A DNA stretch of 34,660 nucleotides. It comes from a virus. A model generated the notes under the pieces. It did no database searches and had not been told where the DNA came from. It saw nothing but the letters and a program-made list of their open reading frames with translations. Shown here piece by piece: positions 270 to 34,660 of the stretch (positions are counted from its first letter, which is position 1; each line of letters starts with the position of its first letter). The translations under genes and the position numbers were made by a program. The stretch covers positions 1-34,660 of the IMG/VR virus record IMGVR_UViG_3300025141_000371, one strand, 5' to 3'.

Positions 270-559
270 AATTCAATTTGTTTTTTTAATGAATCCATTT
301 CTTTTTTAAGATCAGCAATCTGTCTGAAATTTTTAAAATTCTGACTTCTCTCTTTGCTTATATCTTTACTTTGTTGCATTATAAAATCGTATAAAAAATT
401 GATTAATTCTATGGTTTCTTTTAAATCTTTTACAGTTTTTAAATGTTTATCCGGAATATCATAGCTTCCATCCTTCTGCTGATACCTTAATTTAATTGAA
501 TAAATCAGCTTTGTAATATTATTCTTTACTTCTATAATTTGTAAGTTTGGTTCAATCAT
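266..559 (-). CDS. Hypothetical coiled-coil protein (97 aa)
   Basis: I do not recognise a family. The protein is Lys/Glu-rich, with a C-terminal stretch (about 75-97) of heptad-like Leu and Ile spacing typical of a coiled coil. Its ATG overlaps the stop of the ATPase gene as ATGA, so translation is probably coupled. The same slot at the right end of the window, between ATPase and PAPS reductase, holds an unrelated coiled-coil gene of 89 aa (33770-34039). This position therefore varies between related genomes. Confidence 0.8.
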   Translation of the reverse strand: MIEPNLQIIEVKNNITKLIYSIKLRYQQKDGSYDIPDKHLKTVKDLKETIELINFLYDFIMQQSKDISKERSQNFKNFRQIADLKKEMDSLKKQIEF

Positions 560-1422
560 TTTATCTGTTTTAATGGATTGTTTCCACCTAACGTAAAACC
601 TAATCCGGAATTGTAATTTAAACTCAAAGGATCATCTAAAAACGTAATATTACCGCCCGTTTCCTTATCTTTTACTTTCCTTATATGAACTTCCGTAAGC
701 ATCCATAATTCCGGATGGTTAGTCATACGGTGTATTGTTAGAAAATCATCACAACGGTTAGCAAAACTTTGACCGCCCTCTGTATCACTCTTTTTAGGTG
801 GTTGGATGTATCCTCTTAAATTATGCTCCTGTGAATATACTCGTCTGGAGGCTTCTGTTTGGGGATGTGTATTAACATATACCGTTTTTCCTGTCTTATT
901 TGTAAACTCCCTTACATCGTTACAAAATTGGTAATTCCTTTCAAACTGATTTATTCGCCTATCGTGATTCAAACCCGTAAACGGATCTATCAAACACCCA
1001 TTTACATCCTGAGATTTAAAAAGCTTTAATATATCTTTATGGCTGTATAAATTCTTATTATCAATAAATTTAAAATGCCTATCAATATGATCCATTAATA
1101 TTGTAATCTTTTTTAGATCTATTTCAGTAAATTTCTTTCCCTCAATCATAGCCATCAAATCCCTTTTAATTTGCCACGTTTCATTTTCACCCGACCATAT
1201 ACACCATTTTAAATCGTATTTCAATGATAAGCAAAGAAAATACCAGATTATAAATAACGTCTTACCTACATTGTCAAGCCCGTTTATCATTACAAATTGT
1301 GATTGTTTGAACCTCAGATATTTATCAAACTCAGGAAGTCCAATGTCAAGCCCTTTTTTAATCTTTCCGGCATGATAATCGTATAAACTTTCCTCTCCAT
1401 GCCTTTCATTTAAAATGCTCAT
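556..1422 (-). CDS. RecA/DnaB-fold replication ATPase (RepA-like helicase)
   Basis: A 288-aa P-loop ATPase of the hexameric helicase or RepA type. Walker A is GLDNVGKT (residues 48-55) and Walker B is CLIDPF (143-148), followed by a conserved NTHPQTEA segment (about 184-191) and a GGQSFANRCDD segment near 220-230 that fit the sensor region of RecA-fold ATPases. It probably unwinds DNA or loads at the phage origin. It directly follows the initiator-like gene at 1419-1880, overlapping it as ATGA, which supports a replication role. A homologue at roughly two-thirds identity by eye is cut by the right end of the window (34036-34660). Confidence 0.85.
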   Translation of the reverse strand: MSILNERHGEESLYDYHAGKIKKGLDIGLPEFDKYLRFKQSQFVMINGLDNVGKTLFIIWYFLCLSLKYDLKWCIWSGENETWQIKRDLMAMIEGKKFTEIDLKKITILMDHIDRHFKFIDNKNLYSHKDILKLFKSQDVNGCLIDPFTGLNHDRRINQFERNYQFCNDVREFTNKTGKTVYVNTHPQTEASRRVYSQEHNLRGYIQPPKKSDTEGGQSFANRCDDFLTIHRMTNHPELWMLTEVHIRKVKDKETGGNITFLDDPLSLNYNSGLGFTLGGNNPLKQIK

Positions 1423-8322: not shown

Positions 8323-9708
8323 TTAAGGTGTATCTGTTTCAATATCACTTTCTGTCATATTGTAAGAAACTGAGTTATTATCACTATTAGGTGCATCTCC
8401 TACTCTATCTTCAACGGTCATGTTTGCCGAAGTCCCATCGTTACTTCCTACTTGATCTGGTACAGTCCAATTAGTGCTAAATGTAGCTTCTTCGCCTAAC
8501 TTCCAATAGGCAACAGGATTCAATGAAGTGATGTCGTTTGGAGTGCCTGAATTATAAATTGTAGTTACGTTTCCTGAAGTTAAAGCAGTATTCCATAGCG
8601 CAAGGTTAGATAAATTGCCACTTAAATAGTAATTGTTAAAATAAGAACCTATTTTATCAAAAGAATGTTCGCTGCCTGAAGCACCTGAAAAAATAGGTGT
8701 TGTTGTAACTTCTAAAGCTCCATTACAATAGCCTTTTAATTCATTAGCGGTACTATCATAAGTAATAGAATACTGCCTCCATTCTGTTGTTGATGTTGTT
8801 GTTGTAGTTAAAGCAGTCCAACTACCTGGTCTATTTTTAAAAGATAAAAGGTCTGAAACAAAAGTAATAGATGTTAATATTCCGCCATCAATAGCAGTTT
8901 TTCCAACTACTGTATCATAACTATCAGGATTTCCTTTATACCAAAAACTTAAACTAAAATCTGTTAAAATGCCAGATGACAAACTAATATAATCGTCAAC
9001 ACCATCAAAATCTAAAGACCAATTACTAACCTTATCTTTATTAGTATTTTCAGGCATTAATATTTGAGGTGATTTAAAGGTGGAATTATCACCCATACGA
9101 TACCAAGTAATAGGACTTAAACTTGTTAGATCGTTAGGTGTACCGCCATTGAAAATGGCTGAAGCGTTTGAGCTTTGGTCACTATCCCAAGTTGATAATT
9201 CGTCTATATTGCCTGAGTATTCTTGTCCTTTTCCAACTCCAAACCTATCTAATAACAATGCGTTTGTATTGTTTTGGGTACTTGAAAAAGTTGCACCATT
9301 TACATAAATACCTATATCACCACTTGAACTTCTATATAATAAAATATGATTCCAAGAGCCAGCTACTAAATCATTGCCACCACTTTCTGTGAATGTTAAA
9401 GTAGTACCACCAACTTTAAATCTAATTGAAGTTGTTAAATATATTTGTACCCAATTATCATTAGTAGAATGACCTAAATAATAACCTTGTACAGACGTAG
9501 GTATAGTAGGCGTATTTATCCAAGTAGATATAGTAAATTCATCTGTATAACTTAAATCTGACGACAATACTATATAATCGTCAACACCATCAAATGCTAA
9601 AGATTTGGTATTAGAAAATGAAGGTGGTGTAGGTGTAGGACTTTTCGTACCTCCTGAAGGTATCATAAAAACTCCTTTTTTCTTTGCAAAATTATATAAT
9701 GTAGGCAT
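8323..9708 (-). CDS. LamG/concanavalin-like tail fibre or adhesin
   Basis: A 461-aa protein with two copies of a LamG-type lectin fold. Copy one (about 35-200) starts SLAFDGVDDYIVLSS and ends GGTPNDLTSLSPITWYRMGD; copy two (about 230-410) starts SLDFDGVDDYISLSS and ends SGTPNDITSLNPVAYWKLGE. LamG domains bind glycans, so it probably recognises surface polysaccharide on the host. A Pro/Thr linker (PTPTPPS) follows a short N-terminal segment. The ATG at 9708 is used; Met15 is an alternative. It sits after the head and connector genes and before the lysis cassette. The internal duplication is visible by eye. Confidence 0.8.
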   Translation of the reverse strand: MPTLYNFAKKKGVFMIPSGGTKSPTPTPPSFSNTKSLAFDGVDDYIVLSSDLSYTDEFTISTWINTPTIPTSVQGYYLGHSTNDNWVQIYLTTSIRFKVGGTTLTFTESGGNDLVAGSWNHILLYRSSSGDIGIYVNGATFSSTQNNTNALLLDRFGVGKGQEYSGNIDELSTWDSDQSSNASAIFNGGTPNDLTSLSPITWYRMGDNSTFKSPQILMPENTNKDKVSNWSLDFDGVDDYISLSSGILTDFSLSFWYKGNPDSYDTVVGKTAIDGGILTSITFVSDLLSFKNRPGSWTALTTTTTSTTEWRQYSITYDSTANELKGYCNGALEVTTTPIFSGASGSEHSFDKIGSYFNNYYLSGNLSNLALWNTALTSGNVTTIYNSGTPNDITSLNPVAYWKLGEEATFSTNWTVPDQVGSNDGTSANMTVEDRVGDAPNSDNNSVSYNMTESDIETDTP

Positions 9709-9712
9709 ATCT

Positions 9713-10180
9713 TTATGTTAATGGGTTATTACAATTATCATAATTAAAAGGCATGGTAAATGATACTCCGCAACTCCACCCCGTAAGATCATCTTCAAAC
9801 CTCTCTGTAAAACTTGTCATTGTTCCGGATTTCTGAATATTAACTTTTAACCAATCAACATTGTTAGTTGTTGCCGTTCTCTGCTCAAAATAAGCAATCA
9901 TATCCATTAATACCTGAGCCATATCGCTTTTTACTTCATTCTCATTACTCTCGTTCTTTTCAATTATTGACATTGCTAAAATACTAAAGTTCCATGTAAA
10001 AACCCCTTCACCTAACGTTGCCGGACTATCCACAACCCACAACAAAGGGTAATTAAAATCTGCTAATTGATTATGCTCAACCGCTTCCCACAGGTTGCCG
10101 TTTCCAAAGCTTTCAATCTGTCTATGAGCATCAGCAAAATCATTAAACTCCTTTATAATTTGATTATACGTTAAAATCAT
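9713..10180 (-). CDS. Tail completion or head-tail connector protein candidate
   Basis: A 155-aa protein opening with the helical ILTYNQIIKEFNDFADAHRQI, followed by strand-rich stretches and a C-terminal MPFNYDNCNNPL. Similar proteins in Bacteroidetes siphoviruses stand next to neck genes. It follows the 183-aa connector candidate by 3 nt and precedes the adhesin. A tail terminator or neck role is inferred from order and approximate size; no diagnostic motif. Confidence 0.5.
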   Translation of the reverse strand: MILTYNQIIKEFNDFADAHRQIESFGNGNLWEAVEHNQLADFNYPLLWVVDSPATLGEGVFTWNFSILAMSIIEKNESNENEVKSDMAQVLMDMIAYFEQRTATTNNVDWLKVNIQKSGTMTSFTERFEDDLTGWSCGVSFTMPFNYDNCNNPLT

Positions 10181-10183
10181 CTA

Positions 10184-10735
10184 TTAACAATCTTTATAAT
10201 AATTATATTCATCTCTCCAGCACATCGTACTTTTAGCTCCACCTAAATAAAAATTAGTTTGATAAGCAGTTACCCTTGGGTTTAGATCATCGCTCGACTC
10301 AGAATAAGCAGCAAATAAACTCCTATTATCAATTAAATAATTAATTAGTCTTTTATCCCTTTCCTCTGCCTTATTTTTCCATTCATCTCTTAAAAATTGA
10401 AGATCCTGAAAACTTATAGGTTGACTATTTTCAGAGCTTTTCGTTGCTACCGATTTATTTCTATATTTAAATAACATTGATGCTGAACACTCATACATAG
10501 TCCATTGAAGCATGCTTGGTGCAACATAACCGTCAAGTAAATCAATCTCATCAGCATTTAATGTTCCGGCAGTTATCTTTGCTTTTAAATCATCATAAAG
10601 CGGTGTGCCAAGTATCGGGTGAATCCTCAATTCTTGTGCGTCTTTAATGCTCGGTAATATTAACCTCATATCGACATTCTCGTCAATTAGAGTATTGTTT
10701 TTAACGTATGTTTCTGAAATAAATAATACTGCCAT
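10184..10735 (-). CDS. Head-tail connector (DUF6712-like)
   Basis: A 183-aa protein with ISETYVKNNTLIDENVD, a helical middle (RIHPILGTPLYDDLKAKI) and a Tyr/Cys-rich C-terminus. I recall DUF6712-type proteins of Bacteroidetes phages with this opening, located after the portal and interpreted as head-tail adaptors. It directly follows the portal gene with 4 nt between. Function inferred from order. Confidence 0.55.
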   Translation of the reverse strand: MAVLFISETYVKNNTLIDENVDMRLILPSIKDAQELRIHPILGTPLYDDLKAKITAGTLNADEIDLLDGYVAPSMLQWTMYECSASMLFKYRNKSVATKSSENSQPISFQDLQFLRDEWKNKAEERDKRLINYLIDNRSLFAAYSESSDDLNPRVTAYQTNFYLGGAKSTMCWRDEYNYYKDC

Positions 10736-10739
10736 AATT

Positions 10740-12635
10740 TTATCTTTTTATTCTGACCACTTGTTGTTGCCAAATGTGGCGACAAAACGGTCTGTGTAAA
10801 ACCTCCTCTTCTGGGTTAATAACCTCACCTCTTGCATTTCTTTCCCTTGGTATTGTGTACCATCCGCCACGTTTTGTAAAAATATCCCATCCGCTCCAAT
10901 TAAAGTCGTTGTGAAGCATTTTTAATTGATCTAAAGTATATAACCTTCCTAATCCTATCATTTGTCGGCAGAAGCCACGTGAGGTATCTAATAAAATTGG
11001 TTCTCCTCTCAATCTGGGCGATAAAGCATATTTATAAACCACAAATATCTTTTCGTCTGGAATCTGTATTGAACTTATGGCTTCATCCGTTGGAATGAAA
11101 TCTTTTGTTAATGCTCCGACATCCTGTAAAGATTGAATCGTTTTATTAACACTTTCAACATCCATATTTAAAGCTTTACCAATTTCAGTAACCGGCATTT
11201 TAGGATCTGCTTTTAAAATTTCTAATACCTTTTTTTCAGATTCTGTTAAAACCATCCCAATAGCAAAAGAATAATTATTTAAAAATTTATTTTCCAACTC
11301 CTCCGCATCCTTCATACAAGTAATTGGTTCATTGAAAGTCTGGATGATTTCCAACTCGCTTTCTCTATATCCAGAATCTTTTAATTTTTCAAAAATAAAA
11401 TCATCCGTCTGGTCATCCATCATAACCCTCTCTCTTGCTTCTAAAGGTGCTAAACCTATCTTTTCGCGCAACTCGTCTTGAGTCATTACAGAAACAATAG
11501 TCTGTTCACTTAATGCTTTCTGTACCGGTTCAATTTTAACAATTTTTAAGACTTTCGGCAATCCATTGAAATTAATTAATTCGTTAAAAATCTCATTCAA
11601 CGTATCTTGCTCCGGATCTATATATAAATTTTGATATAATTCCGCCGCCGTTCTCAATTCATCTGCGTTGTTTCCAAGTCCCGTATTATCTTTTATCCCA
11701 AATAACATTGGTGAGGTCACTCCATGAGCAGTATAAATTTCTTCTCTAATCTGTTTATTTAAACTATTGAAACGATCATCTTGCCCATTCGTTGGTATTG
11801 GAATTATCTGCGGGTGGTCTGAATTTTGATCCGTAAAGCTGAGTAAAGGCTTTCCGGCATTATCACTTCCCGTAGCGTATTCTTTGAAACGTCTTTCAAT
11901 AACCTGCATTTCCTCTTCTGTTGGTTCTCCGTTGTTAAACGATATGATGTAACCAGCAGATAAATTATTTTTTATGTTTTGAAGCGTAAAATTTGCAATT
12001 TCTACATCAGCTTCAAGATACGGAACTGCCGGAATGTAATCCCCTAAAGGATAAATATGTAAGTCTGGTCTATATTCTTTGTAATAAATGATATAATTCG
12101 TTGTCGTATTAATAGAATCATCAAAAGGAAATAATCTAAGCTCTGTAAAATCCTCGTTATTTTCTGGACTCCTTGCTTTCCAATCATCTGTATAAAAGTA
12201 TTTATCCTCGTCCTCTATTGCTTTCCTGACATTTCCGAAATTAATATGCTCTAAAGCAGTAATTTTTTTATTCGCATCGATCATCACTTGCATACAAAAT
12301 CCTCCGTAAACCTTTTTATCTTTTACGATCTTATACAATAAATCGGTCATATTATCAATATCATTCGTAGTCCTTAAAAAAGCATCTATCTGTGCCCTCT
12401 CCTTAAATGAAACATCTCTGCTTATTGCAAAACCCTTTCCCACAATAAAATTAGTCTTTGCATTGATTATCGTTGCGTGTTTACTCGATTCATTATAAAG
12501 CTTCGTTAAGAAATCCGGATACGTATTTTTATAAGGTCTTTCGCTTCCATATTCGTACCAATCGCCACGTCTGGATTCTTTGAAAATCGGCAATTCGTAA
12601 CCTTTGAAATTTAATGTAATTAATTTAACACTCAT
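10740..12635 (-). CDS. Portal protein with internal winged-helix and MuF-like C-terminus
   Basis: A 631-aa protein. The N-terminal about 440 residues look like a portal: NAKTNFIVGKGFAI near 58-71, AYGVTSPMLFGI-like HGVTSPMLFGIKDNTGLG near 305-320, and a helical stretch around the stem. After this comes an apparent winged-helix domain (about 463-515; VTEIGKALNMDVESVNKTIQ) and a C-terminal region (about 530-631) ending RPFCRHIW, resembling the CRHxW end of MuF-type minor head proteins. The portal forms the ring through which terminase packs DNA. The extra C-terminal domains are unusual. The gene is the last large head gene in transcription order. Confidence 0.75.
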   Translation of the reverse strand: MSVKLITLNFKGYELPIFKESRRGDWYEYGSERPYKNTYPDFLTKLYNESSKHATIINAKTNFIVGKGFAISRDVSFKERAQIDAFLRTTNDIDNMTDLLYKIVKDKKVYGGFCMQVMIDANKKITALEHINFGNVRKAIEDEDKYFYTDDWKARSPENNEDFTELRLFPFDDSINTTTNYIIYYKEYRPDLHIYPLGDYIPAVPYLEADVEIANFTLQNIKNNLSAGYIISFNNGEPTEEEMQVIERRFKEYATGSDNAGKPLLSFTDQNSDHPQIIPIPTNGQDDRFNSLNKQIREEIYTAHGVTSPMLFGIKDNTGLGNNADELRTAAELYQNLYIDPEQDTLNEIFNELINFNGLPKVLKIVKIEPVQKALSEQTIVSVMTQDELREKIGLAPLEARERVMMDDQTDDFIFEKLKDSGYRESELEIIQTFNEPITCMKDAEELENKFLNNYSFAIGMVLTESEKKVLEILKADPKMPVTEIGKALNMDVESVNKTIQSLQDVGALTKDFIPTDEAISSIQIPDEKIFVVYKYALSPRLRGEPILLDTSRGFCRQMIGLGRLYTLDQLKMLHNDFNWSGWDIFTKRGGWYTIPRERNARGEVINPEEEVLHRPFCRHIWQQQVVRIKR

Positions 12636-16126: not shown

Positions 16127-18346
16127 TTATTTTATTGTAGCCTGTGTTTCAATCACAGCCACTTTGTTTTGTGTATTACTTATATCGGTTTCCGTTACAT
16201 ATACTTGTTGTGGTTCTTGTGGAACTAAAGTAGATGTATTTGTTACGGGTGCTATTTTAGGTGCTCCCATTCCTCCACCCCCTGAAATATTAGGTGCTGA
16301 GACTGATCCACCTCCAGAAAATTGTTGTTGACTTATTTTCGCAATTTGTGCCGTTGTTACTGCCGCTAAAATTCCTAATTGACCTACCTTGTAAACCGTT
16401 CCAAATGGATCAGGTATAGTAGATGCATTCGCTAATATATTAACAACCCCCTGACTTGCTGAAATCAAAGCTTGTGCAATCTGTAACTTTTTATTCCTTT
16501 CAAATGCTTTCTTTTGTTGTGCTTCTGTCTGACCTTGAAAAGCATCATTTAATTGCATTAAAGCATCTATTCCACCCAGAGCTAAATTAAAAGATTCATC
16601 TTGTACTTGTTTTTCAAACTCAAGCTTTTTCTCTGCTGCTTCTTTATCTGCTTCTAATTTTTTCTCTCTCGCTTCTTTCTCATTCTCGATTTTTTCATCT
16701 TGTAACTCTGCCAATCTCTCTGCTTCTGCCTGTTCCCTTTCGAACTCTGCATCTACAAACTCCTGAGAAATATCTGCAATCCTTTGTTGATACTCAAATT
16801 CTAATAATTCCTTTTCAGCATCCGTTAATTTTTTATTCTCTAATTCCTTTTCATGCTTGAATCTTTCAATATTAATTAATGCTTCTGCTTTCTTTTTTTC
16901 ATCAAGTATATCTTCTGCATCTGCTTCCTTTCTTGCAACCTCCAGATCAAACAATGCCTGTTTATCTCTTTCTAATTTTTCCTCTCTCTCTTGCTTTTTT
17001 TTCTCGCTTCTTTTATTGCTTTTTTCTTCTCTTTCCTTTTCAATTTTATTTTCAAATACTAATAAATTAGTTTGTGCATCCTCAATAGATTGTGTTGATT
17101 TTTTAACCTCTAAATCTAATTTTTTTAAGGAATCTTCTTGTGATTTTAAAAGCGTATCCATCTCTTCTTGAGACATTTGCAATATTCTAAAATTAGCGTT
17201 CATTTCATCATGAAGAATACTTAATTCTAATTTTTTAAGTCTTATACGTTCCCTTGTAAGTTCTTCTTGTTCTTTTGCACTTTCGACTAATACTTTTAAT
17301 TTTTGCCGTTCAAGTTCAATAGTTTTTTTTCCTAATGATTTTTGTATTTTAATTTCATTCTCTAAGCCTTTAATCCTTAAATCAGATATTTCCTTTTCAC
17401 GCTTTGCTAATCTTTCAAGTTCTTTAATTTGGTTTGCTATCGATTCTAATTTCGCTTTAGTTCTTTTTGCTTCTGCTTCGGCACGTTCACGCTTCGCTTT
17501 TTCTTCCTCACTTTCTAAAATACCTAATTCTTGAAGTCCCCATTTTATCGCATCAATAACCCACATTAAAGGTGCTAAAGCAATGTCAATAACCTTTTTA
17601 ACACCCTTGCCAAAAGCACCCATTCCACCCGTAATGTTTTTAACCCATTTAACAAGTTTTCCGAAGTTCATCACTAAAGCAACAACACCAATAATAATAG
17701 CTCCGATTCCTGTTGCCATTAAAGCAATCCTAAATAATTTTAATGCTCCTGAAGTAGCCCCAACAGCAGTAGTCCATAACCATTGACCAGCCGTAACGAT
17801 CTTTTGAACTATTGCAGTTGCTTTTAAATCTTCATTCCATAATTTTAAGCCATGTCTTATGCTTCCCGCAACCCCCTCAAATGCAAACATGACACCGATC
17901 GCTTTTTCTATTTTATGGGTGTTTTCCTCGGATGCACCTGTTAACAACATTAATCCCGCAGTAGCTTCACCTATAGAAGCACCAAATTGTAATACAGAAT
18001 CTGTTGAATGTAAAAATTCATCTGATAATGTTTTTACGTCTTTTTTGGTTTGAGTTAATTGTTGTTTTTCAAATCTAAATTTTGATAATTCCAGATTATT
18101 CTCTTTTATTTTTTCTTTTAACTCTTCAAGTATTTCCTCTGTAACACCAAACATGCCAAGCATAGCTTTAGGCATTCCTTTCCATTGAAGTTCTAACTCT
18201 GAAAGTTCTTTTTTTAATTTAATATTTGACTCTGTTAATTCTAATGTAGAATGGTTAACCCTGTTGATTTCTTCCTCAATTTCACCTAATGTTTTAATGC
18301 TACTCTGAGCCTCAACATCTATTCGTAACGCAACTCTTTCTGCCAT
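16127..18346 (-). CDS. Tape measure protein
   Basis: A 739-aa protein. The N-terminal region is a coiled coil, followed by a hydrophobic segment (about 185-225; WLWTTAVGATSG, IALMATGIGAIIIGVVALVM), then a very long Glu/Lys/Arg-rich coiled coil (about 280-580) and a Gly/Ser/Pro-rich C-terminus. This is the usual pattern of a tail-length ruler. At about 0.15 nm per residue the tail would be near 110 nm. The C-terminal region before the end (QIAQALISASQGVVNILANAS) also looks typical. It stands at the end of the tail module, just before the protease. Confidence 0.8.
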   Translation of the reverse strand: MAERVALRIDVEAQSSIKTLGEIEEEINRVNHSTLELTESNIKLKKELSELELQWKGMPKAMLGMFGVTEEILEELKEKIKENNLELSKFRFEKQQLTQTKKDVKTLSDEFLHSTDSVLQFGASIGEATAGLMLLTGASEENTHKIEKAIGVMFAFEGVAGSIRHGLKLWNEDLKATAIVQKIVTAGQWLWTTAVGATSGALKLFRIALMATGIGAIIIGVVALVMNFGKLVKWVKNITGGMGAFGKGVKKVIDIALAPLMWVIDAIKWGLQELGILESEEEKAKRERAEAEAKRTKAKLESIANQIKELERLAKREKEISDLRIKGLENEIKIQKSLGKKTIELERQKLKVLVESAKEQEELTRERIRLKKLELSILHDEMNANFRILQMSQEEMDTLLKSQEDSLKKLDLEVKKSTQSIEDAQTNLLVFENKIEKEREEKSNKRSEKKKQEREEKLERDKQALFDLEVARKEADAEDILDEKKKAEALINIERFKHEKELENKKLTDAEKELLEFEYQQRIADISQEFVDAEFEREQAEAERLAELQDEKIENEKEAREKKLEADKEAAEKKLEFEKQVQDESFNLALGGIDALMQLNDAFQGQTEAQQKKAFERNKKLQIAQALISASQGVVNILANASTIPDPFGTVYKVGQLGILAAVTTAQIAKISQQQFSGGGSVSAPNISGGGGMGAPKIAPVTNTSTLVPQEPQQVYVTETDISNTQNKVAVIETQATIK

Positions 18347-22919: not shown

Positions 22920-23570
22920 TTATCTTTTTTTAAATAAGTCTTTCATTCCTTTTACTATCGCCTGTCCTCCGGCTTTGTTCAGCTCCATTACAAACCTCCT
23001 TTTAATCTCTCCATTATTAACAGACTCCAGAACCCTGTCAAAATAATATTTAGGTGTTATTCCTGAATGATAAATAATTTCCCTTAATACAAAAGGGTTA
23101 AATCTTTTTAAATAAGCCCATTCAAACAATAGAGGTGGTTTTTCATCCTTGTAAAAATATTTAGATCCTGTTGCTTTTACTACCCATGCTATTTGTTCCG
23201 GATTTCCTTGGGCATCTCTTTTTATTCTTTTATACCTATTTCCCTTTTTACTTGTAACCGTTTCATATACATTTTTAAAGCCACCTACTCCCTTTACCCC
23301 TTGGTTGATAAAATCATAATAGTCAGCCATATAAAGAGTAGCAGTAAACGTATCTCCAAACAACTCAACCGGCATACTTACTTTATGTCTCAAAGTGCTT
23401 TCCTGTAATCCTTCGGCATCAATTTCCTGTAATGTTTTGTCAATAATTCTAATAGCAAGGTTATTCATTACATCCCCTAAAGACTTCGGATCTGCAACAA
23501 TTTCATTAACATTAACAAAATTATTATCTGCTCCTATATTTAAATTCTGTGCTAAATTATTACCTGCCAT
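22920..23570 (-). CDS. Tail completion-like protein (HK97 gp10-like candidate)
   Basis: A 216-aa protein with MADYYDFINQGVKGVGG (about 81-97), reminiscent of the HK97 gp10 family's tyrosine-and-glycine edge segment, followed by a basic KKGNRYKRIKRDAQ loop and a helical C-terminus ending KDLFKKR. It overlaps the end of the frameshift product gene by 11 nt. A structural tail or neck role is likely, the family tentative. Confidence 0.5.
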   Translation of the reverse strand: MAGNNLAQNLNIGADNNFVNVNEIVADPKSLGDVMNNLAIRIIDKTLQEIDAEGLQESTLRHKVSMPVELFGDTFTATLYMADYYDFINQGVKGVGGFKNVYETVTSKKGNRYKRIKRDAQGNPEQIAWVVKATGSKYFYKDEKPPLLFEWAYLKRFNPFVLREIIYHSGITPKYYFDRVLESVNNGEIKRRFVMELNKAGGQAIVKGMKDLFKKR

Positions 23571-23853
23571 GTTTTGCCTTTTGCATCATATCTCTATGTT
23601 GTTGATCTTCCATTCTTTGTTTATCCTTATAATAACAACAAACATTTAAAGCCTTTATGACTTCCCATTCTAAAATTTGATCCCACTTGTCAACCCTTGA
23701 ATTTGTCAAAGCATCTACAAGCGACCACCATCCCCAACTGTCTGCAAATCCGTCTCCGTTTTCAACTCCTTTTTTACTTCCGTCACTATCTTCTCTGCTT
23801 CCTCCGTCAAAGAAGTTTTTATAGTTTGCATTAAGTCTGGATAACGATTGCAA
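23560..23853 (-). CDS. Frameshift extension of the tail assembly chaperone (GT-like)
   Basis: A 97-codon frame in the -1 phase relative to the upstream chaperone gene, overlapping it by 139 nt. It has no ATG; the first possible start is a TTG that is the end of the T9 slippery run itself. The product contains SWGWWSLVDALTNSRVDKWDQI (split here: SWGWWSLVDAL, then TNSRVDKWDQI), typical of the C-terminal part of GT-type chaperones, and a Gln/His-rich end. Read after a -1 slip at 23853, it would add 97 residues to the first 174 of the chaperone, giving 271 aa. Such fusion products recruit tail tube and tape measure in lambda. Confidence 0.7.
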   Translation of the reverse strand: MQSLSRLNANYKNFFDGGSREDSDGSKKGVENGDGFADSWGWWSLVDALTNSRVDKWDQILEWEVIKALNVCCYYKDKQRMEDQQHRDMMQKAKHGR

Positions 23854-24374
23854 AAAAAAACAGCAATAGGATAAGCATCTGCAATACTCATATTTTTGAG
23901 AATATTATCTGCAGTTTCTCTTATTACTTTGCCATTCATTTTTTTTGATTTCCACAATAAACCATATTTTTTGTCTATCGGTCTAAATATTACAGTCAGT
24001 ATCTTGTGAAGATTATCAAATAATATAGCATCATTTTCACTTGCTTTCTGCATGATTTCCATAATAGAAATATATTCACCAAATAACATATTCTTAGCAT
24101 CCCATTTCCATTCGTACCATTGATTGTTAAGCTTAATTCTTTTTTTCTTTATTTCTTTAGGTAGCTCAGTATTCAAGAAAGACATTTTTTTAAGCAATAG
24201 CTTATAATCCGGAAGTGTAATATTTTCGACATCCTCCCTTTTTTTATCCGTAAGAATACATAAAGTGTTTATGATCTTGGTAACCGGTTCTTGCTCTGTT
24301 TCCAATACAGGTTTTAATTTGATATACATTTCAATTGTAATATCATTCCATGACGTAGGTATAGTAACTTCCAT
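23715..24374 (-). CDS. Tail assembly chaperone (G-like)
   Basis: A 219-aa protein with SWNDITIEMYIKLKPVL at the start, an ILCI-like helix, a middle with QWYEWKWDAKNMLFGEYISI and a conserved-looking IADAYPIAVFFCNRY (about 164-178) at the slippery site. The protein type, just after terminase and upstream of the tape measure, is that of the lambda G family. The last 45 residues after the slip site are charged and Thr/Glu/Lys-rich. The ATG at 24374 is only 8 nt past the box at 24382-24399. Confidence 0.75.
   Translation of the reverse strand: MEVTIPTSWNDITIEMYIKLKPVLETEQEPVTKIINTLCILTDKKREDVENITLPDYKLLLKKMSFLNTELPKEIKKKRIKLNNQWYEWKWDAKNMLFGEYISIMEIMQKASENDAILFDNLHKILTVIFRPIDKKYGLLWKSKKMNGKVIRETADNILKNMSIADAYPIAVFFCNRYPDLMQTIKTSLTEEAEKIVTEVKKELKTETDLQTVGDGGRL
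23852..23860 (-). promoter_or_regulatory. Slippery T9 for -1 frameshifting
   Basis: The minus strand reads GCT GTT TTT TTT TGC in the chaperone frame, with nine T in a row. A slip of -1 after the second TTT moves the ribosome into the 97-codon frame. The T run contains T TTT TTT, a classical slippery heptamer, and polymerase slippage on nine T would have the same result. Confidence 0.7.
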
Positions 24375-25379: not shown

Positions 25380-26576
25380 CTAACGTATTGAGTACCAGCC
25401 TCTTTTGTTCTCTTTTAAATGGATCAATGCAACATAACGCAAAGAATCTATTAAATGATTGAATTTATCGACAGGAATATTAAGTTTTTTGCCGTTTTTA
25501 TCCACTTGCCATTTATAATTTTTAAACTCTTTTATTAAATTTAATGATGAATTTTCAATGTATATTTTATGCCTTTTTAATATATCAATGCCATTCTGGA
25601 TTGAGTCCCGACCTTTAGTTGCCGGTTTACTATTGATTCCCATACGATAAAGTTCCTCTATGCTTTTTGGTTCAGCTGAGTCGCAAATTACTTCCGATCT
25701 TTCAATAATAGGTTTTAACTTCTCTGCTACATCTTGATTCGTTAACCCTTTCTCGTACATAATCTCTTTTAAATATAAACTATCATCATGCTTATAAACA
25801 CCCACAACTGCCGTAGGATCAATAGAATAACCAAAGTCTAAGCCAAATGATATAAGTTTAGCTTTTTCCGGAATATCGTCAACCATCTTAAAGTTATTAA
25901 ATACATTATCTTCACTCGATCCCTGTAACCCTAATCCATAGACTCGCCAATAGTTTTTATCAAGTTCCTTTAATCTTAATATTTCATCTTTAATGCTCTG
26001 CTCTAAAAATGGATTATCATAAAAAGTAGTACGATGGAACTCTGCATCTTCCCTTGGTATTACTTTCTCATATATCCAATGATATTCGTCTGCTGGATTA
26101 TAGTCAATTATTATTCTGCCTGTTGTTCTGAATATTAACTGTTGCCAATCTTCATAAGATAATTCGTTAGCTTCGTTAATGAATAGTAAGTCCCTCTTTC
26201 GACCTCTGACTTTTTGTGCTTGATCCAAGCTGATGAACTCGACTAAGTTATCATAAAGCCAATACTCACTGCTCGATTTATTATGGTATTCCGGATCATA
26301 TATATTATGCTTTCTCAGGATGTCGATAAAATCCCGCATTACTGTTGCCCTGATAGCTGGGAAAGTTTTCCGACATATCGTTATAACCTTTCCAGAATTT
26401 TGACTGCAATAAACACAAATAATCCATAAAAGAATGTTATAAGTCTTTCCGGATCTCGCACCCCCCTGTTCAATGATTATCTTTTTATCAGAATTAAGAA
26501 GATGTTTAAAAACCTTATTCGTTTGGAGTTTCGTTTGTGTCAATGATCTCAATTTTAAATGAAGTAGGACTTCCAT
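25380..26576 (-). CDS. terL: Terminase large subunit
   Basis: A 398-aa packaging motor. The ATPase shows Walker A GGARSGKT (38-45) and Walker B LLFINEAN (130-137). The RNase H-like nuclease shows GLDFGYSIDPTA (Asp247), ICDSAEPKSIEEL (Asp299) and a C-terminal DKFNHLIDSLRY. It pumps DNA into proheads through the portal and cuts the concatemer. The ATG at 26576 gives a 62-nt overlap with the small subunit gene; the conserved part starts about residue 17, so a slightly later non-ATG start is possible. Confidence 0.95.
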   Translation of the reverse strand: MEVLLHLKLRSLTQTKLQTNKVFKHLLNSDKKIIIEQGGARSGKTYNILLWIICVYCSQNSGKVITICRKTFPAIRATVMRDFIDILRKHNIYDPEYHNKSSSEYWLYDNLVEFISLDQAQKVRGRKRDLLFINEANELSYEDWQQLIFRTTGRIIIDYNPADEYHWIYEKVIPREDAEFHRTTFYDNPFLEQSIKDEILRLKELDKNYWRVYGLGLQGSSEDNVFNNFKMVDDIPEKAKLISFGLDFGYSIDPTAVVGVYKHDDSLYLKEIMYEKGLTNQDVAEKLKPIIERSEVICDSAEPKSIEELYRMGINSKPATKGRDSIQNGIDILKRHKIYIENSSLNLIKEFKNYKWQVDKNGKKLNIPVDKFNHLIDSLRYVALIHLKENKRGWYSIR

Positions 26577-26886
26577 CAGCTCCCGTAATCTCTTGTCTTT
26601 CTACGTAACCTCTCCTCTTTCCTTTGGTCTTTAAATAGAATATTGTAGCAGTAGAATTACCATCTTTAATCTGCTTATGTAACTGACTTTCAGCAAAATC
26701 TAAAGCTATATCTCCAATGCTATCAACTTCTTTTTTAAACTCCTCATCCTTATTATACCAATCATAAAAGGTTGATCTATTTACTCCCGTTTGTTTACAG
26801 GCAGTAGTTACCACTCCCAATGATTTTTCCAATGATTCTACTAACTTCTTTTTTAATATGTCCGATTTCGTTGGTCTTGTTTTCAT
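26515..26886 (-). CDS. terS: Terminase small subunit
   Basis: A 123-aa protein with a helix-turn-helix near the N-terminus (VVTTACKQTGVNRSTFYDWY, about 25-44), a helical oligomerisation region (ALDFAESQLHKQIKDG) and a C-terminal part with TIFYLKTKGKRRGY. The TIFYLKTKG segment is common in small terminase subunits. It recognises phage DNA for packaging. It overlaps FolE as ATGA, so packaging and base modification genes share one transcript. Confidence 0.85.
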   Translation of the reverse strand: MKTRPTKSDILKKKLVESLEKSLGVVTTACKQTGVNRSTFYDWYNKDEEFKKEVDSIGDIALDFAESQLHKQIKDGNSTATIFYLKTKGKRRGYVERQEITGADGSPTSFKIEIIDTNETPNE

Positions 26887-27428
26887 TTTATAAAACTTAA
26901 AAACTCCTTTCTCGCACCATCATTATCTTGAAATACACCTAATAATTTTGTAGTGATAGTCCAAGTATCATGCTTTCGTACTCCTCTCATGCTCATACAA
27001 AGATGTTGAGCTTTCAAAGATACCGCCACACCCAAAGGATTGAGTTCATCTTGTAAACGATTTGCTACTTGAAAAGTTACTCTTTCCTGATTCTGTAATT
27101 TATTAGCATATAGATCAACAGTTCTGGCTAACTTTGATAGTCCTACTATTTTGTCTTTTGGAATATAAGCCACATTTGCTACTCCAAAGAAAGGTGCTGT
27201 ATGATGTTCACAAAGAGAATAAAAAGGAATGTTAGTTTGTATTATCATTTCATCTAATCCCTCAGCATCAAATGTAGTGAAGTTAAATTCTTTAGGTTTA
27301 AGAAATTCTGTTAAAAATTTAATATATCTTTTGGGAGTTTCTTGTAATCCTTCTCTTGTTGTATCTTCTCCAAAGTGTTTTAATATTTGTTGAAAATGCC
27401 ACTCAGCACTATTTTCTTTATATATCAT
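26883..27428 (-). CDS. folE: GTP cyclohydrolase I
   Basis: A 181-aa enzyme converting GTP to dihydroneopterin triphosphate, the first step of preQ0 synthesis. FYSLCEHHTAPFFG (Cys73, His75, His76) and AQHLCMSMRGVRK (His142, Cys144) give the zinc site and active site of the type IA enzyme. Length is normal for the catalytic core. It is the last gene of the queuosine-type block; stop and start overlap with QueE and with the terminase small subunit as ATGA. Confidence 0.95.
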   Translation of the reverse strand: MIYKENSAEWHFQQILKHFGEDTTREGLQETPKRYIKFLTEFLKPKEFNFTTFDAEGLDEMIIQTNIPFYSLCEHHTAPFFGVANVAYIPKDKIVGLSKLARTVDLYANKLQNQERVTFQVANRLQDELNPLGVAVSLKAQHLCMSMRGVRKHDTWTITTKLLGVFQDNDGARKEFLSFIK

Positions 27429-28147
27429 ACTCCTGTCTTTTTATTCCAGATTTCAATATGTAATCTATTAGTATATTTTATATAATTCTTTTTACAAATC
27501 TCTGCTACTATTTGCTTTGATTCATTTAATAAATCTTTATTCTCTCCGGATGGCATCAACCACGCTTTCTTTTTATTGATTAAAGGCATATATAATGATG
27601 AAATCTTTTCCCAATCCTTATAGTTAGATACTACAAATTTAAAGATAGTATTCAATTTATTAAGTTTCTTTATTACGTCTTTATGATAAAACATAACTTT
27701 TTCATTTCCTGAGTTCTCTATCTTTGGTGAACAATTCCATTGATCCACTCTCTTTGTAAGGTAATCGGACGGCTTTACTGTTCCGTTTGTTTCTATTTCA
27801 ATATACACATTTTTATATAGACCATCAATATACTCTATAAATGATTTTAAAGCGTTCTGCTGAATTAAAGGTTCTCCACCGGTTACTATTATATGAGCAC
27901 CATTTATAATAGCTCTATGCTCCTCTTTTGTTAATACTTCATCTACATTAATTACCTTGGATTTCATCCAGACTTCTATCGTATCACATCTCCATGTAGA
28001 ATTATTATGTAGTTGCTTATCGAATTGCGTTCCCATTCCACCGCACATTAAATTACATCCACCAAGTCTAACGAATACTGCCGGGTATCCGGATGTTATC
28101 CCCTCTCCTTGTATTGAATAAAATACTTCACTTATTGCTAATTTCAT
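27425..28147 (-). CDS. queE: 7-carboxy-7-deazaguanine synthase (radical SAM)
   Basis: A 240-aa enzyme converting 6-carboxytetrahydropterin to CDG. I use the ATG at 28147 (MKLAISEVFYSIQGEG); a TTG at 28183 would add twelve residues. EVFYSIQGEG, VFVRLGGCNLMC and IIVTGGEPL (SAM-binding GGEP) are diagnostic. The cluster cysteines are Cys31, Cys35 and Cys54, a CX3C-X18-C spacing rather than CX3CX2C, with the third Cys in WRCDT as usual. So about 16 residues are inserted between the second and third ligands. The start overlaps the QueD stop by 20 nt. Confidence 0.9.
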   Translation of the reverse strand: MKLAISEVFYSIQGEGITSGYPAVFVRLGGCNLMCGGMGTQFDKQLHNNSTWRCDTIEVWMKSKVINVDEVLTKEEHRAIINGAHIIVTGGEPLIQQNALKSFIEYIDGLYKNVYIEIETNGTVKPSDYLTKRVDQWNCSPKIENSGNEKVMFYHKDVIKKLNKLNTIFKFVVSNYKDWEKISSLYMPLINKKKAWLMPSGENKDLLNESKQIVAEICKKNYIKYTNRLHIEIWNKKTGV

Positions 28148-28586
28148 ATATTGCACTGTTTTTATTGTTTTCAAAACATTCAACCTTTACTACTCTACAT
28201 CTTCCGGCATCTTGTTTAGATAGAGTGTAGTTAAATTTATCGAATACTAATTTAGCCAAACTTTCACATCCCATTTTATCCATAATTTTTAATTTACATA
28301 TCCCCTCCATTTGAGCTGATTGAAAAAAATCTAAGTATGGATCATCTTTTTCTATTAATAATGTATGGTCAAACATATCGTTCATCCAGTCTTTTAAGCC
28401 CATATGACCAAAGCCACCAAAATCAACAACCCAATTCATATCGTCTAACGTATCAGCTTCAAACCAAACTTTAAATTCCAATGCGTAACCATGAAGCAAC
28501 TTACAATGAGAATGTTGTGCTTTGTGTTGCCTTAAAGCAACAGAGTAATTAGAAAATAATTTTGTTGATCTATAAACGTTCATCAT
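28128..28586 (-). CDS. queD: 6-carboxytetrahydropterin synthase
   Basis: A 152-aa member of the PTPS family that makes 6-carboxytetrahydropterin from dihydroneopterin triphosphate. The N-terminal QHSHCKLLHGYALEFKVW holds the catalytic Cys28 and the HG segment at 32-33. In typical members the motif is HGH with two zinc-binding His; here the second is Tyr34. WVVDFGGFGHMGLKDWM matches the VxDF segment, and the C-terminal VVKVECFENNKNSAIYE carries the usual glutamate. Either Met1 or Met2 may be used. It overlaps the ArcS-like gene by 17 nt. Confidence 0.85.
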   Translation of the reverse strand: MMNVYRSTKLFSNYSVALRQHKAQHSHCKLLHGYALEFKVWFEADTLDDMNWVVDFGGFGHMGLKDWMNDMFDHTLLIEKDDPYLDFFQSAQMEGICKLKIMDKMGCESLAKLVFDKFNYTLSKQDAGRCRVVKVECFENNKNSAIYEISNK

Positions 28587-29226
28587 TATTAAATTTATTA
28601 ATATAATAATGTAAGTCTGTTAAAATAATTGGATGTAAGTCTGGAAACATTCTCAACCCAATTTTATCAAATCCGCTTTTATGTGCTTTGCTATAAATAA
28701 AATCGTTTGGTGCTACAACATAATCTTTTATATGTTTTTTTTCTTTTAAATATTTACCTGCGAATTTTCCTGCTTTGCTATTTCTTAATGTTGGTCTAAA
28801 ATTAAAAACTACATATTCATAACTTTTAATAATAAAAAACCGCATTAAATTTCTTGTAGTGTAAATTATATACATATCGTCATATTCTTTTTCTCCATGT
28901 GCATCATATATTGGATATGGGTAGCTGTTTTCATATTCCAGAGGTATAACTCCTGCGTTACTTGAAATTATATAATCAACATTTTTAAACTCTGTTATAA
29001 ATTTTTTCCATTTTCTCGACTTTGAATAAGGTCTTGTAGAAGTACATAGTGAAACAAAAGCCACTCTATTTTTAGGTTTGAAATTATCTAAAATACGTTC
29101 TTGCGCTTTTACCATAATAGAATGGTTTAGTATTAATTCATCGTTACCATGTAATTCTTTATTGTCTATCCATTCTTTTTGTTTAAACAACTTTTGATCT
29201 CCTTTATTTTCTTTTTGTTTATTCAT
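28570..29226 (-). CDS. Freestanding ArcS-like domain protein (DUF5591-type)
   Basis: A 218-aa protein. After a charged N-terminus, residues 54-73 read RVAFVSLCTSTRPYSKSRKW, a variant of the archaeosine synthase signature PC-x3-KPY-x2-S-x2-H: Cys61 and PYSKS are kept, while Pro, Lys and His are Leu60, Arg65 and Trp73. Residues 88-109 (ISSNAGVIPLEYENSYPYP, then IYDAH) match ArcS's GlvPrElE..yP..YD segment. ArcS acts on preQ0 in tRNA, on the way to archaeosine. Placed between QueC and QueD, a role on 7-deazaguanine in DNA is the natural guess. Changed catalytic residues make another reaction or lost activity possible. Confidence 0.65.
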   Translation of the reverse strand: MNKQKENKGDQKLFKQKEWIDNKELHGNDELILNHSIMVKAQERILDNFKPKNRVAFVSLCTSTRPYSKSRKWKKFITEFKNVDYIISSNAGVIPLEYENSYPYPIYDAHGEKEYDDMYIIYTTRNLMRFFIIKSYEYVVFNFRPTLRNSKAGKFAGKYLKEKKHIKDYVVAPNDFIYSKAHKSGFDKIGLRMFPDLHPIILTDLHYYINKFNNDERL

Positions 29227-29872
29227 TTACATATTTCATATAACCTTTCTTTCTCAATTCACAAGCGGGACATTCTCCACATCCATAACCCCAAATATGT
29301 AAATTAGTTCTATCTCCATTATAACAAGTATGTGATAAATTTATAACCTCACTTAAACACTTTTCTTTTTCTGCTAATAAAAAAGTTTCTGCTTTAGTTA
29401 GATACATTAAAGGAGTTTCAATTTTAATATTTTCTTGTGATCCTAAATTAGTACACCACTCTATTGCTTTAATAAATGATTCTCTACAATCTGGATAACC
29501 ACTGTAATCCGTTTGGCATACTCCTGTAATTAATGTTTCTGCTCCTATCTTTTGAGCAAAAGAATGAGCCAAAGTAATAAACATTTGATTTCTATTAGGA
29601 ACAAAAGAGGTTGGTAATCCTTTTTTATTTACTTGGTTAACGTCTCCATTTGAAGTCAATGCGCTTTCTACGATAGTATTTAAAAAAGACATATCAATAA
29701 TAGTATGTTTAATATTTTCTTTATCACATATTATTTTTGCCTGTTCAAGTTCTATGCTATGTTTCTGACCATAGTTAAATGTTATTGCTTCTACTTTTTT
29801 ATATCTATTTATCGCCCAATATAAACAAGTTGTTGAATCTTGACCTCCTGAAAAAATTACTACTGCTTTCAT
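29219..29872 (-). CDS. queC: 7-cyano-7-deazaguanine (preQ0) synthase
   Basis: A 217-aa PP-loop enzyme that makes preQ0 from CDG, ATP and ammonia. The nucleotide motif is SGGQDST (8-14), with ITFNYGQKH (30-38) next. The C-terminal zinc site is Cys183, Cys198, Cys201 and Cys204 in CYNG...GCGECPAC. Length is normal. No extra amidotransferase domain is fused, unlike Gat-QueC of some modified phages. It overlaps the DpdA-like gene by 4 nt and the ArcS-like gene by 8 nt. Confidence 0.95.
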   Translation of the reverse strand: MKAVVIFSGGQDSTTCLYWAINRYKKVEAITFNYGQKHSIELEQAKIICDKENIKHTIIDMSFLNTIVESALTSNGDVNQVNKKGLPTSFVPNRNQMFITLAHSFAQKIGAETLITGVCQTDYSGYPDCRESFIKAIEWCTNLGSQENIKIETPLMYLTKAETFLLAEKEKCLSEVINLSHTCYNGDRTNLHIWGYGCGECPACELRKKGYMKYVNE

Positions 29873-30684
29873 AAATTATTTATTGCATATTTTTGAAACT
29901 TAACCCATTCCTTAAAATTATGGATTGCTACTTGTCTTGCTTTTAATCTTTTGCCTTGTGGAACTTTTATTTTTAAAATATCTTCTCCATTGAACTTATA
30001 TAAAAATCCACCTCTGTTTCCATAAATCCATGCAGTAGAATCCACTGACTCGAATCGTAATGTTTTTAATCCGTTTTGTGTAGTAAATCCTAATCCATGA
30101 ACTTTTGTATTTCTTTTTCTGGCTTCATTTATTAAATACCTAAACACATGGTGATCGTTTCTTTTAATTTCACCCGTCACTATTCCACCAATAGCAACGT
30201 AATCATATTCATCACACATTTTAAACCAATAATCTTTACCCCTCGACTTATGCCAAACAGGTATACTCTTTTTATTAGTTAGCTTCTCGAGTTTATTCCT
30301 AAGTCTTTCAACTTCTTTTATTCCTACAACTACATCAATATCTAATTCAATAAATAAGTCAATGTCAAGTTTATTTATTAGGTCTGCATACCTTTCTGTG
30401 TATTCATCCCAATTAATACCCCGATCATTTTTGTTATCACTCATAAAAGTAAATGCTCCAGAGTCTAACATGAAATGCCAATGGTTTTTTATATATGGAA
30501 ACATCCATTCTTTGATATAATAAAAAGACTCAAGCACGAAAATTTTATCTTTATTTTCTAATACAAAAGGTCTTGAGTATGTTCCGGCTAAAAATATCTC
30601 CATTACTTTGTCTGGGTTTTCGCTATACTCTTTCCATAAATAATTATTATTACCTGACGATGCTCCCGCTAAATATATTTCCAT
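29869..30684 (-). CDS. dpdA: DpdA-like DNA guanine transglycosylase
   Basis: A 271-aa protein of the tRNA-guanine transglycosylase superfamily. I use the ATG at 30684 (MEIYLAGASSG); the frame is open to a TTG at 30738. Motifs: FMLDSGAFTF (Asp74, the DSGxF of the active site), FIELDIDVVVG (110-121), IPVWH (His145), YVAIGGIVTG (162-171), VHGLGF (195-200) and VDSTAW (214-219). Length is well below tRNA transglycosylases (near 375), and it stands with preQ0 genes, as phage DpdA proteins do. It should swap guanine in DNA for preQ0 or a derivative. The zinc cysteines of tRNA enzymes are absent. Confidence 0.8.
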   Translation of the reverse strand: MEIYLAGASSGNNNYLWKEYSENPDKVMEIFLAGTYSRPFVLENKDKIFVLESFYYIKEWMFPYIKNHWHFMLDSGAFTFMSDNKNDRGINWDEYTERYADLINKLDIDLFIELDIDVVVGIKEVERLRNKLEKLTNKKSIPVWHKSRGKDYWFKMCDEYDYVAIGGIVTGEIKRNDHHVFRYLINEARKRNTKVHGLGFTTQNGLKTLRFESVDSTAWIYGNRGGFLYKFNGEDILKIKVPQGKRLKARQVAIHNFKEWVKFQKYAINNL

Positions 30685-30727
30685 GTCTTTGTATATGTAT
30701 GGATGTGTGGAGAACATAAATAAACAT

Positions 30728-31264
30728 TCACAACTCAAGTAAGTTCCAAATTATCTGTTCCTTTGATCCTTCTAAACTATCTAACTTTTCAATAACTTTA
30801 TTATAATCATCCTCAGAGTATTCCAATATTATTTTATTTACTGCTTCCTTTTCGTCTTCATTTGAATCCTCAAAGAAACTATCCAGATCAATGTCCTCGT
30901 TAAAGAATACTTCAAGTCCCCATGACTCCAACTTCTCTGTGTCCCATTCATTCGCCAACGTATCCCAATCCCATGATCCGAAGCCTACGTTATCTTTAAT
31001 GATAAATTCCTGTTGTTGTTCCGGAGTTAAATCACTTGCTTTGATTATCGGCACTTCTTTTAATCCGGCTTTCTGACAAGCTTTTAATCTCATGTTTCCA
31101 CCCAAAACAACCATGTCCTCGTTTACTACAATCGGTCTAAGCTTTAACATTTCTGGAAGATCCTTTATTGATTCAACTAATTTTTTAAACTTTTCATCCT
31201 TTATATAACGTGGGTTATTAGGATTCGTTTTAATGTCTTTAATCTTCGCAGTTATCGTCTTCAT
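30728..31264 (-). CDS. ParB-like N-terminal domain protein (178 aa)
   Basis: ParB/Srx-type domain with TNPNNPRYI (13-21), RPIVVNEDMVVLGGNMRLKA (43-62; GGNMR takes the place of GxHR) and an IIKASDLTPEQQQEFIIKDN segment (about 73-92), the typical ParB-N order. The C-terminal half is acidic (DIDLDSFFEDSNEDEKE). Phages often carry this domain next to DNA methylases or modification genes. Here it is the first gene of the preQ0/DpdA block, so a role linked to DNA modification or genome handling is possible. Confidence 0.75.
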   Translation of the reverse strand: MKTITAKIKDIKTNPNNPRYIKDEKFKKLVESIKDLPEMLKLRPIVVNEDMVVLGGNMRLKACQKAGLKEVPIIKASDLTPEQQQEFIIKDNVGFGSWDWDTLANEWDTEKLESWGLEVFFNEDIDLDSFFEDSNEDEKEAVNKIILEYSEDDYNKVIEKLDSLEGSKEQIIWNLLEL

Positions 31265-33783: not shown

Positions 33784-34039
33784 TTAAAAATTCTTTTAAG
33801 TCTTTAACTTCTTTTTTTAATATAGCATTATCTAACATTAACTTACTGTTATCATGTTTTAAAGTGCCTATATGTTTATTTAAAGCCTCTATAAGCTCTT
33901 GTTGTTGGTTAAGTAGTAGTAAACTATCATTTAATATATGCAACGCCTTAAACTGTTTTTTTGTTTTTGCTTTTTGTTCAGCTTCTATTATTAAAATATG
34001 TAGTTGATTTTTTCTTAGTATTGTTTCTAATTCATTCAT
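33770..34039 (-). CDS. Hypothetical coiled-coil protein (89 aa)
   Basis: A helical protein with heptad-like Leu spacing over most of its length (LLLLNQQQELIEALNKHI, NAILKKEVKDLKEFL). It overlaps the ATPase stop as ATGA and the PAPS-reductase-like start by 14 nt. It takes the place of the unrelated 97-aa coiled-coil gene at the left end. Function unknown. Confidence 0.75.
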   Translation of the reverse strand: MNELETILRKNQLHILIIEAEQKAKTKKQFKALHILNDSLLLLNQQQELIEALNKHIGTLKHDNSKLMLDNAILKKEVKDLKEFLNEDS

Positions 34040-34660
34040 TTAAATATTTCTTTTGCTGTTGTGTCAAATTCATCTATTGGTTTTTTAAGTGGATTAACAC
34101 CACCTATTGTAAAACCTAAGCCATTGTTATAATCAAAACGTAAAGCATCAAAAGTACATTTACCGCCTGTTTCAACGTCTTTAATTTTACTTATTGTTAG
34201 CTCGGTCATCATCCATAAGTCAGGATGATTAGTCATTCTGTGGACCGTCATGTAGTCATCACAGCGATTAGCAAAACTTTGACCGCCTTCGGTATCACTT
34301 TTTTTAGGTGCTTGTATATATCCTTTTAAAGTATGATTGTCTGGATATACTCTTCGCGCTGCTTCTGTTTGTGGATGTGTATTAACATAAACTGTTTTTT
34401 TAGTTCTGTTTGTAAACTCTCTTATATCGTTACAGAAATTATAATTCCTATCGTACTGGCTTATCTTTACTCTGTCGTGGTTTAAGCCTGTATAAGGATC
34501 AATTAAACAACCATGACAATTAACCTTAGCAAACAAATTTAATATATCGTTATGGCTGTATAATTTAGTGTTATCTATAAAAGTAAACCAGTTTTCAATT
34601 TTACTTAAATACATTCCTAATAAATTTTCATCTAAATCTTTAAAACTTTGTCCTAAATAC
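34036..34660 (-). CDS. RecA/DnaB-fold replication ATPase, C-terminal part
   Basis: The C-terminal about 208 residues of a homologue of the ATPase at 556-1422, with GCLIDPYTGLNHDR (Walker B), VYVNTHPQTEA and GGQSFANRCDDY. The frame stays open to the window end at 34660, past the internal Met at 34614, so the N-terminal Walker A part lies outside. By eye about two thirds of residues match the left copy; the C-terminus is longer by about ten residues (DEFDTTAKEIFK). Confidence 0.8.
   Translation of the reverse strand, partial: YLGQSFKDLDENLLGMYLSKIENWFTFIDNTKLYSHNDILNLFAKVNCHGCLIDPYTGLNHDRVKISQYDRNYNFCNDIREFTNRTKKTVYVNTHPQTEAARRVYPDNHTLKGYIQAPKKSDTEGGQSFANRCDDYMTVHRMTNHPDLWMMTELTISKIKDVETGGKCTFDALRFDYNNGLGFTIGGVNPLKKPIDEFDTTAKEIFK

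Follow-up and report, generated by a model that had tools for sequence, protein, structure and literature searches.

Based on the analysis of a 34,660-nt viral contig with a GC content of 31% (record IMGVR_UViG_3300025141_000371; "the window" below means this whole stretch of DNA), we propose that a gene pair located after the terminase genes is expressed, in the manner of lambda G/GT, through a programmed -1 frameshift, here at nine consecutive Ts (T9). Leaving aside the mechanism of the slip, we assign this reading a probability of about 0.92. From one start codon, both a 219-aa G-type chaperone and, via a -1 shift at T9, a 271-aa GT-type fusion would be produced. The G/GT arrangement had been suggested by a sequence-only reading of the window, and it is supported by the conservation of the run, the coding signature of the -1 frame, the architecture of distant relatives and the place of the pair in the tail module. 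As the comparison of relatives showed, selection has preserved the run and the -1 ORF together throughout a very wide phage family.

Organization of the locus

The G-type ORF, T9 and the -1 ORF all lie on the minus strand, together with the following neighbours:

25380..26576, minus strand: terminase large subunit gene, upstream of the pair on the same strand (PHROG 2, E 1e-42; also matched in phage records)
24374..23715, minus strand: G-type ORF in the zero frame, 219 aa, with residues 1-174 common to the fusion
23860..23852, minus strand: T9 slip site, G-U9-GC in the mRNA, with codons 172-175 reading GTT TTT TTT TGC
23853..23859, minus strand: in-phase heptamer T TTT TTT within T9, the bases for which nucleotide-level selection was shown
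23560..23904, minus strand: open -1 frame, stop included; its 97 codons from 23853 onward make up the T-type extension, which carries a WGW motif
22920..23570, minus strand: gene that follows, 216 aa, with its ATG overlapping the -1 ORF end; it served as an independent bait in the search for relatives
16127..18346, minus strand: gene downstream of the pair whose 739-aa product is probably the tape measure protein (weak PHROG tape measure match, E 0.021)

The sequence-only reading had described a 219-aa ORF overlapping a 97-codon -1 frame, the zero-frame codons GTT TTT TTT TGC at T9 and a slip product of 271 aa, all of which were recovered here, the product as the sum of 174 and 97 aa. Its coordinates for the locus and for T9 also stand, and the strand, which it had left unstated, is minus. 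Its placing of the opening of the -1 frame inside the nine Ts was incorrect: the previous stop is located at 23907, and the frame is open from 23904, i.e., 16 codons before the slip. It had further described this frame as having no ATG. ATG codons do exist there (MEDQQ.. and MMQK), but all of them are near the C-terminus; additionally, a TTG is located at the junction, at position 23853 of the window. The stop codon of the -1 ORF (23562..23560) falls within the opening codons of the gene that follows (AAACATGGCAGGTAA), leaving no non-coding gap between the two zero-frame ORFs. T9 is the sole mRNA-sense nine-T run in the genes of the window.

Conservation of the T run among relatives

Among the baits with which relatives were collected, two were independent of the slip site, namely the neighbouring gene and a distant member of the family that was searched with patterns excluding the site. 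Slip sites were placed by the Phe-Phe pair and the open -1 frame, i.e., by amino acids and not by codons, which after duplicate removal gave 215 distinct relatives. The question that the sequence-only reading had posed, whether homologues keep the run, was answered in the affirmative at all 215 placed sites: 213 carry T9 and two carry T10, with none shorter, and the relatives with T9 or T10 extend down to about 20% protein identity. A read error merging the two frames, which that reading had named as its possible refutation, is ruled out by these relatives, since a T9 kept in hundreds of distant phages is a real signal and not a sequencing slip. The sole exception among the relatives examined was L153, with T8 near locus position 2758, which probably reflects an indel or assembly error, or else a broken copy. 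Eight Ts cannot join the G frame of L153 to its -1 frame by a simple -1 slip.

The size of the family was apparent from several overlapping sets: 158 stretches were confirmed in viral contigs with the first family profile, 30 loci came from the search with the distant member and 63 from that with the protein of the cultured phage P12024S, and at least 596 stretches were matched by the profile of this last protein. No match was obtained by tblastn of the 219-aa protein against 50,697 phage records or in the first scan of genome contigs.

Nucleotide-level selection on the run

In 29 genes with less than 90% identity, codons 172-174 were invariably GTT TTT TTT; all other conserved residues with a choice of codons used several codons in these same genes. 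Substitutions were then counted along a 212-sequence tree. Codon 172 underwent 17 residue changes (V, L, I, F), all of them via base 1, and codons 173 and 174 underwent zero changes at any base. At codon 175, 11 residue changes were counted (Y, W, C, S, L), with its first base changed only once, in L251, which reads ATG TTT TTT TTT CTG; here, the 3' T is gone and a 5' T stands in its place, and the total is still nine. Third bases changed 0 times at codons 172-174, compared with 15-52 times in each other hydrophobic column of G.

On these tree-based counts, selection on the in-phase T TTT TTT, the inner seven bases of the run, was shown, and selection on a length of nine as such was suggested. 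As to the latter, each of the outer two Ts falls on the second base of a hydrophobic codon, either in the zero frame or in the -1 frame. These two Ts had appeared convincing at first as proof of selection on length, but this argument was weakened when second bases were found to be frozen in about half of the hydrophobic control columns. T TTT TTT is an in-phase heptamer of the X XXY YYZ form under nucleotide-level selection, as is characteristic of -1 frameshift sites.

Coding signature of the -1 frame and alternative readings

The closest relative short of near-identity, L005, differs from the window at 105 positions in 830 nt. In the stretch covered by the -1 frame only, 18 differences were found, 12 of them at position 3 of the -1 codons. 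Read in the -1 frame, 11 of these differences are silent and 7 change a residue, compared with 4 silent and 14 changing in the zero frame, and 1 silent and 17 changing in the remaining frame. Family-wide, the first, second and third positions of the -1 codons changed 244, 192 and 415 times, respectively. Judged by these substitution patterns, the -1 frame is protein-coding and conserved, and it evolves as -1-frame codons. A second frame without a start of its own, joined to the G frame by a conserved slip site, is the arrangement of a G/GT pair, and it is the one found here.

The -1 ORF could alternatively be a separate gene that is translated from its own start codon with no frameshift, as the TTG at the window junction and the annotation of P12024S gp39, which begins at an internal ATG, would allow. 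Nevertheless, ATG, GTG and TTG are all absent from the -1 frame ahead of the conserved WGW motif in 145 of the 215 relatives, and only 15 have an ATG or GTG there. We rejected an own start on the grounds that start codons are absent in most relatives; it would also leave the frozen third bases of the T run unexplained, and we consider it very improbable. A still less probable alternative, to the point of being negligible, is that a single ORF has been broken in two, by decay of the gene or by an error made within the run in sequencing or assembly. Homopolymer runs are indeed error-prone in reads; however, T9 accompanies two intact frames in a cultured isolate as well as in more than 200 distinct loci from metagenomes, and no relative was found with both parts fused in a single frame. 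Relatives and isolate thus agree, and this alternative was also rejected in favour of the programmed frameshift.

Cultured carriers and probable host

The only cultured carriers found were the Nonlabens phages P12024S and P12024L. In P12024S, the site reads ATA CTT TTT TTT TAT (T run at 23578-23586), and the two parts, gp38 and gp39, were deposited as two separate hypothetical proteins. This locus shares with the window the T9, its phase, an ATG-less opening of the -1 ORF and the adjoining terminase gene; it differs in having CTT and not GTT ahead of the two Phe codons and in its shorter G, of 175 aa. By profile comparison, the G parts of the family and of P12024S matched with a probability of 96% (E 4e-9). 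The match between the T parts was weaker (61%, E 8e-5), with the WGW motif common to the intermediates between the T parts of the window's family and that of P12024S.

Five relative loci were located in bacterial or archaeal genome bins, including a Bacteroidetes bin and a Winogradskyella bin; the other loci, in bins labelled as unrelated organisms, may be misbinned. The host is probably a member of the Bacteroidota, a conclusion drawn from P12024S and the two named bins and not from the window itself.

Other cultured phages were considered and rejected. The gut Bacteroides phages BV741P1, EMB2 and BT23 and the Flavobacterium phage Fpv8 have no equivalent T9 site in the stretch after the terminase gene, and the EMB2 gene did not match G or T when profiles were compared. 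Gp10 of the Flavobacterium phage 6H showed a weak structural likeness to G (TM 0.31), with no usable -1 site. In 6H, gp10 (10927..10352) is followed by a -1-frame ORF (10361..10044) without an early ATG, and no slip site joins the two.

Comparison with known frameshift systems

Like the window, the lambda gpG/gpGT system has one start, a short product and a -1 extended one, and co-directional tail genes (PMC5009743). There is no recognisable sequence match between the two, and in the window, unlike in lambda, three genes lie between the pair and the probable tape measure gene. The slip site of lambda, G GGA AAG, is a mixed heptamer, whereas that of the window is a homopolymer run. The E/E+E' system of P2 resembles the window in its T-rich heptamer T TTT TTG, its -1 direction and the lack of a downstream hairpin (PMC3091744); P2 differs in its contractile tail and in having six Ts followed by G where the window has nine Ts, and no sequence match was found between them. 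In transcriptional slippage genes such as Shigella mxiE and Thermus dnaX, as in the window, two frames are bridged by a long run of T or A (PMC5009743, PMC3711429, PMC1088944). Slippage has been experimentally established in those genes, which are not phage tail genes; in the window it is no more than possible.

Probable tail chaperone role and fold

We infer the chaperone role from architecture and place, since no named chaperone family was matched. A search of Pfam with the G protein gave nothing significant. PHROG matches were to families without a function, plus, for 3 of the 44 members of the G-type family alignment, a weak match named "tail protein"; PHROG 32199, which holds the P12024S protein, does not name a function. 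The AlphaFold2 model of G was confident (mean pLDDT 83.5). Fold searches of the PDB with this model gave no match, and its matches in BFVD were mostly unnamed phage proteins, including the P12024S protein, with one weak structure match named tail assembly chaperone. The model of the T domain (pLDDT 57.7) was too poor for a structure search.

Regarding its place, the G gene follows the terminase genes and precedes the probable tape measure gene with three genes in between, an order that is common in outline to P12024S. G/GT genes are usually, although not strictly, found between the major tail protein and tape measure genes. In the tail module of the window, the tape measure gene is a probable assignment, and the major tail protein had no certain match. 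By analogy with lambda, G would bind to the tape measure protein along its length, the T extension would recruit tail tube subunits, and the efficiency of the slip would set the G:GT ratio.

Ribosome or polymerase

We lean towards a slip by the ribosome, with two tRNA-Phe shifting in tandem on the in-phase U UUU UUU, which would need no RNA stimulator, as in P2. The in-phase heptamer is frozen, tail chaperones count among the classic cases of ribosomal frameshifting (PMC5009743), and the T TTT TTG slip site of P2 operates without a hairpin (PMC3091744). No downstream stem-loop or pseudoknot was detected by single-sequence z-scores or by consensus folding in three clades, and Rfam gave no match in the 34,660-nt window. 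A downstream stimulatory RNA structure is common but not required for -1 ribosomal frameshifting.

The host RNA polymerase could instead add one U at T9 in some of the messages, with U10 then read straight through as GT, an explanation already named in the sequence-only reading, and one that we hold as serious though less probable. Runs of more than eight Ts are the class reported for transcriptional slippage, which T9 reaches (PMC3711429), and the E. coli enzyme prefers slips on poly(T), with an insertion rescue of about 5-10% at T7/T8 (PMC6260861). Moreover, all 215 placed sites have a run of at least nine, L251 exchanged a 3' T for a 5' T and retained nine, no RNA structure is conserved downstream, and the ribosomes of Bacteroidia work without Shine-Dalgarno pairing (PMC9976891). 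In the other genes of the relatives' loci, fewer A runs of nine or more occur than synonymous shuffling predicts (12 vs 28.8 expected); A7 and A8 runs in the coding sense are near expectation, so the depletion of A is length-dependent. T runs elsewhere, however, numbered 2 vs 3.0 expected, too few to reveal avoidance, the outer two Ts are explicable as second bases of hydrophobic codons, L251 is a single case, and the frameshifts of like kind in lambda and P2 have been described as translational (PMC5009743, PMC3091744). Neither the phase of the heptamer nor the junction peptide alone can separate ribosome from polymerase, since an in-phase T TTT TTT occurs within every T9 and both mechanisms would give the same main junction, VFFL in the window phage. 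A contribution of ribosome and polymerase together seems unlikely, and the ribosomal slip is the reading we favour.

Other genes of the window

On the minus strand, positions 26883..30738 hold a run of genes that we take to be FolE-, QueE-, QueD- and QueC-like, names assigned by reading the sequences; within it, 29869..30738 encodes a queuine tRNA-ribosyltransferase-like protein (PHROG 887, E 3e-50). These genes resemble the 7-deazaguanine pathway and may serve to modify phage DNA. Helicase-like genes are located at both ends of the record (556..1422 and 34036..34614, both minus strand); their identity of 68% over 180 aa indicates paralogues and not an end repeat. The 461-aa protein encoded at 8323..9708 (minus strand), whose two halves are alike by eye (LamG-like), is possibly a tail fibre or adhesin.

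Significance

The general -1 trick is already known from phage lambda, and the family described here is without a named function in Pfam and the PHROGs. Our search of the open-access literature for tail-chaperone frameshifts in Bacteroidetes phages returned no earlier report of it. The present analysis points to a likely function for a gene pair listed as unknown in phage databases, across hundreds of environmental phages and the cultured ones, and indicates that gene callers split the G/GT pair wrongly. Since one nearly invariant run is found family-wide with no conserved stimulatory structure, the family also provides a clean test case for whether the polymerase is able to set the G:GT ratio, or the ribosome alone, in hosts whose ribosomes lack Shine-Dalgarno pairing. 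We put forward tentatively that this very large, mostly uncultured and probably Bacteroidota-infecting family makes its GT protein by RNA polymerase slippage at T9. If this is true, the G:GT ratio would be set during transcription and not during translation, which would suit hosts whose ribosomes ignore Shine-Dalgarno stimulators.
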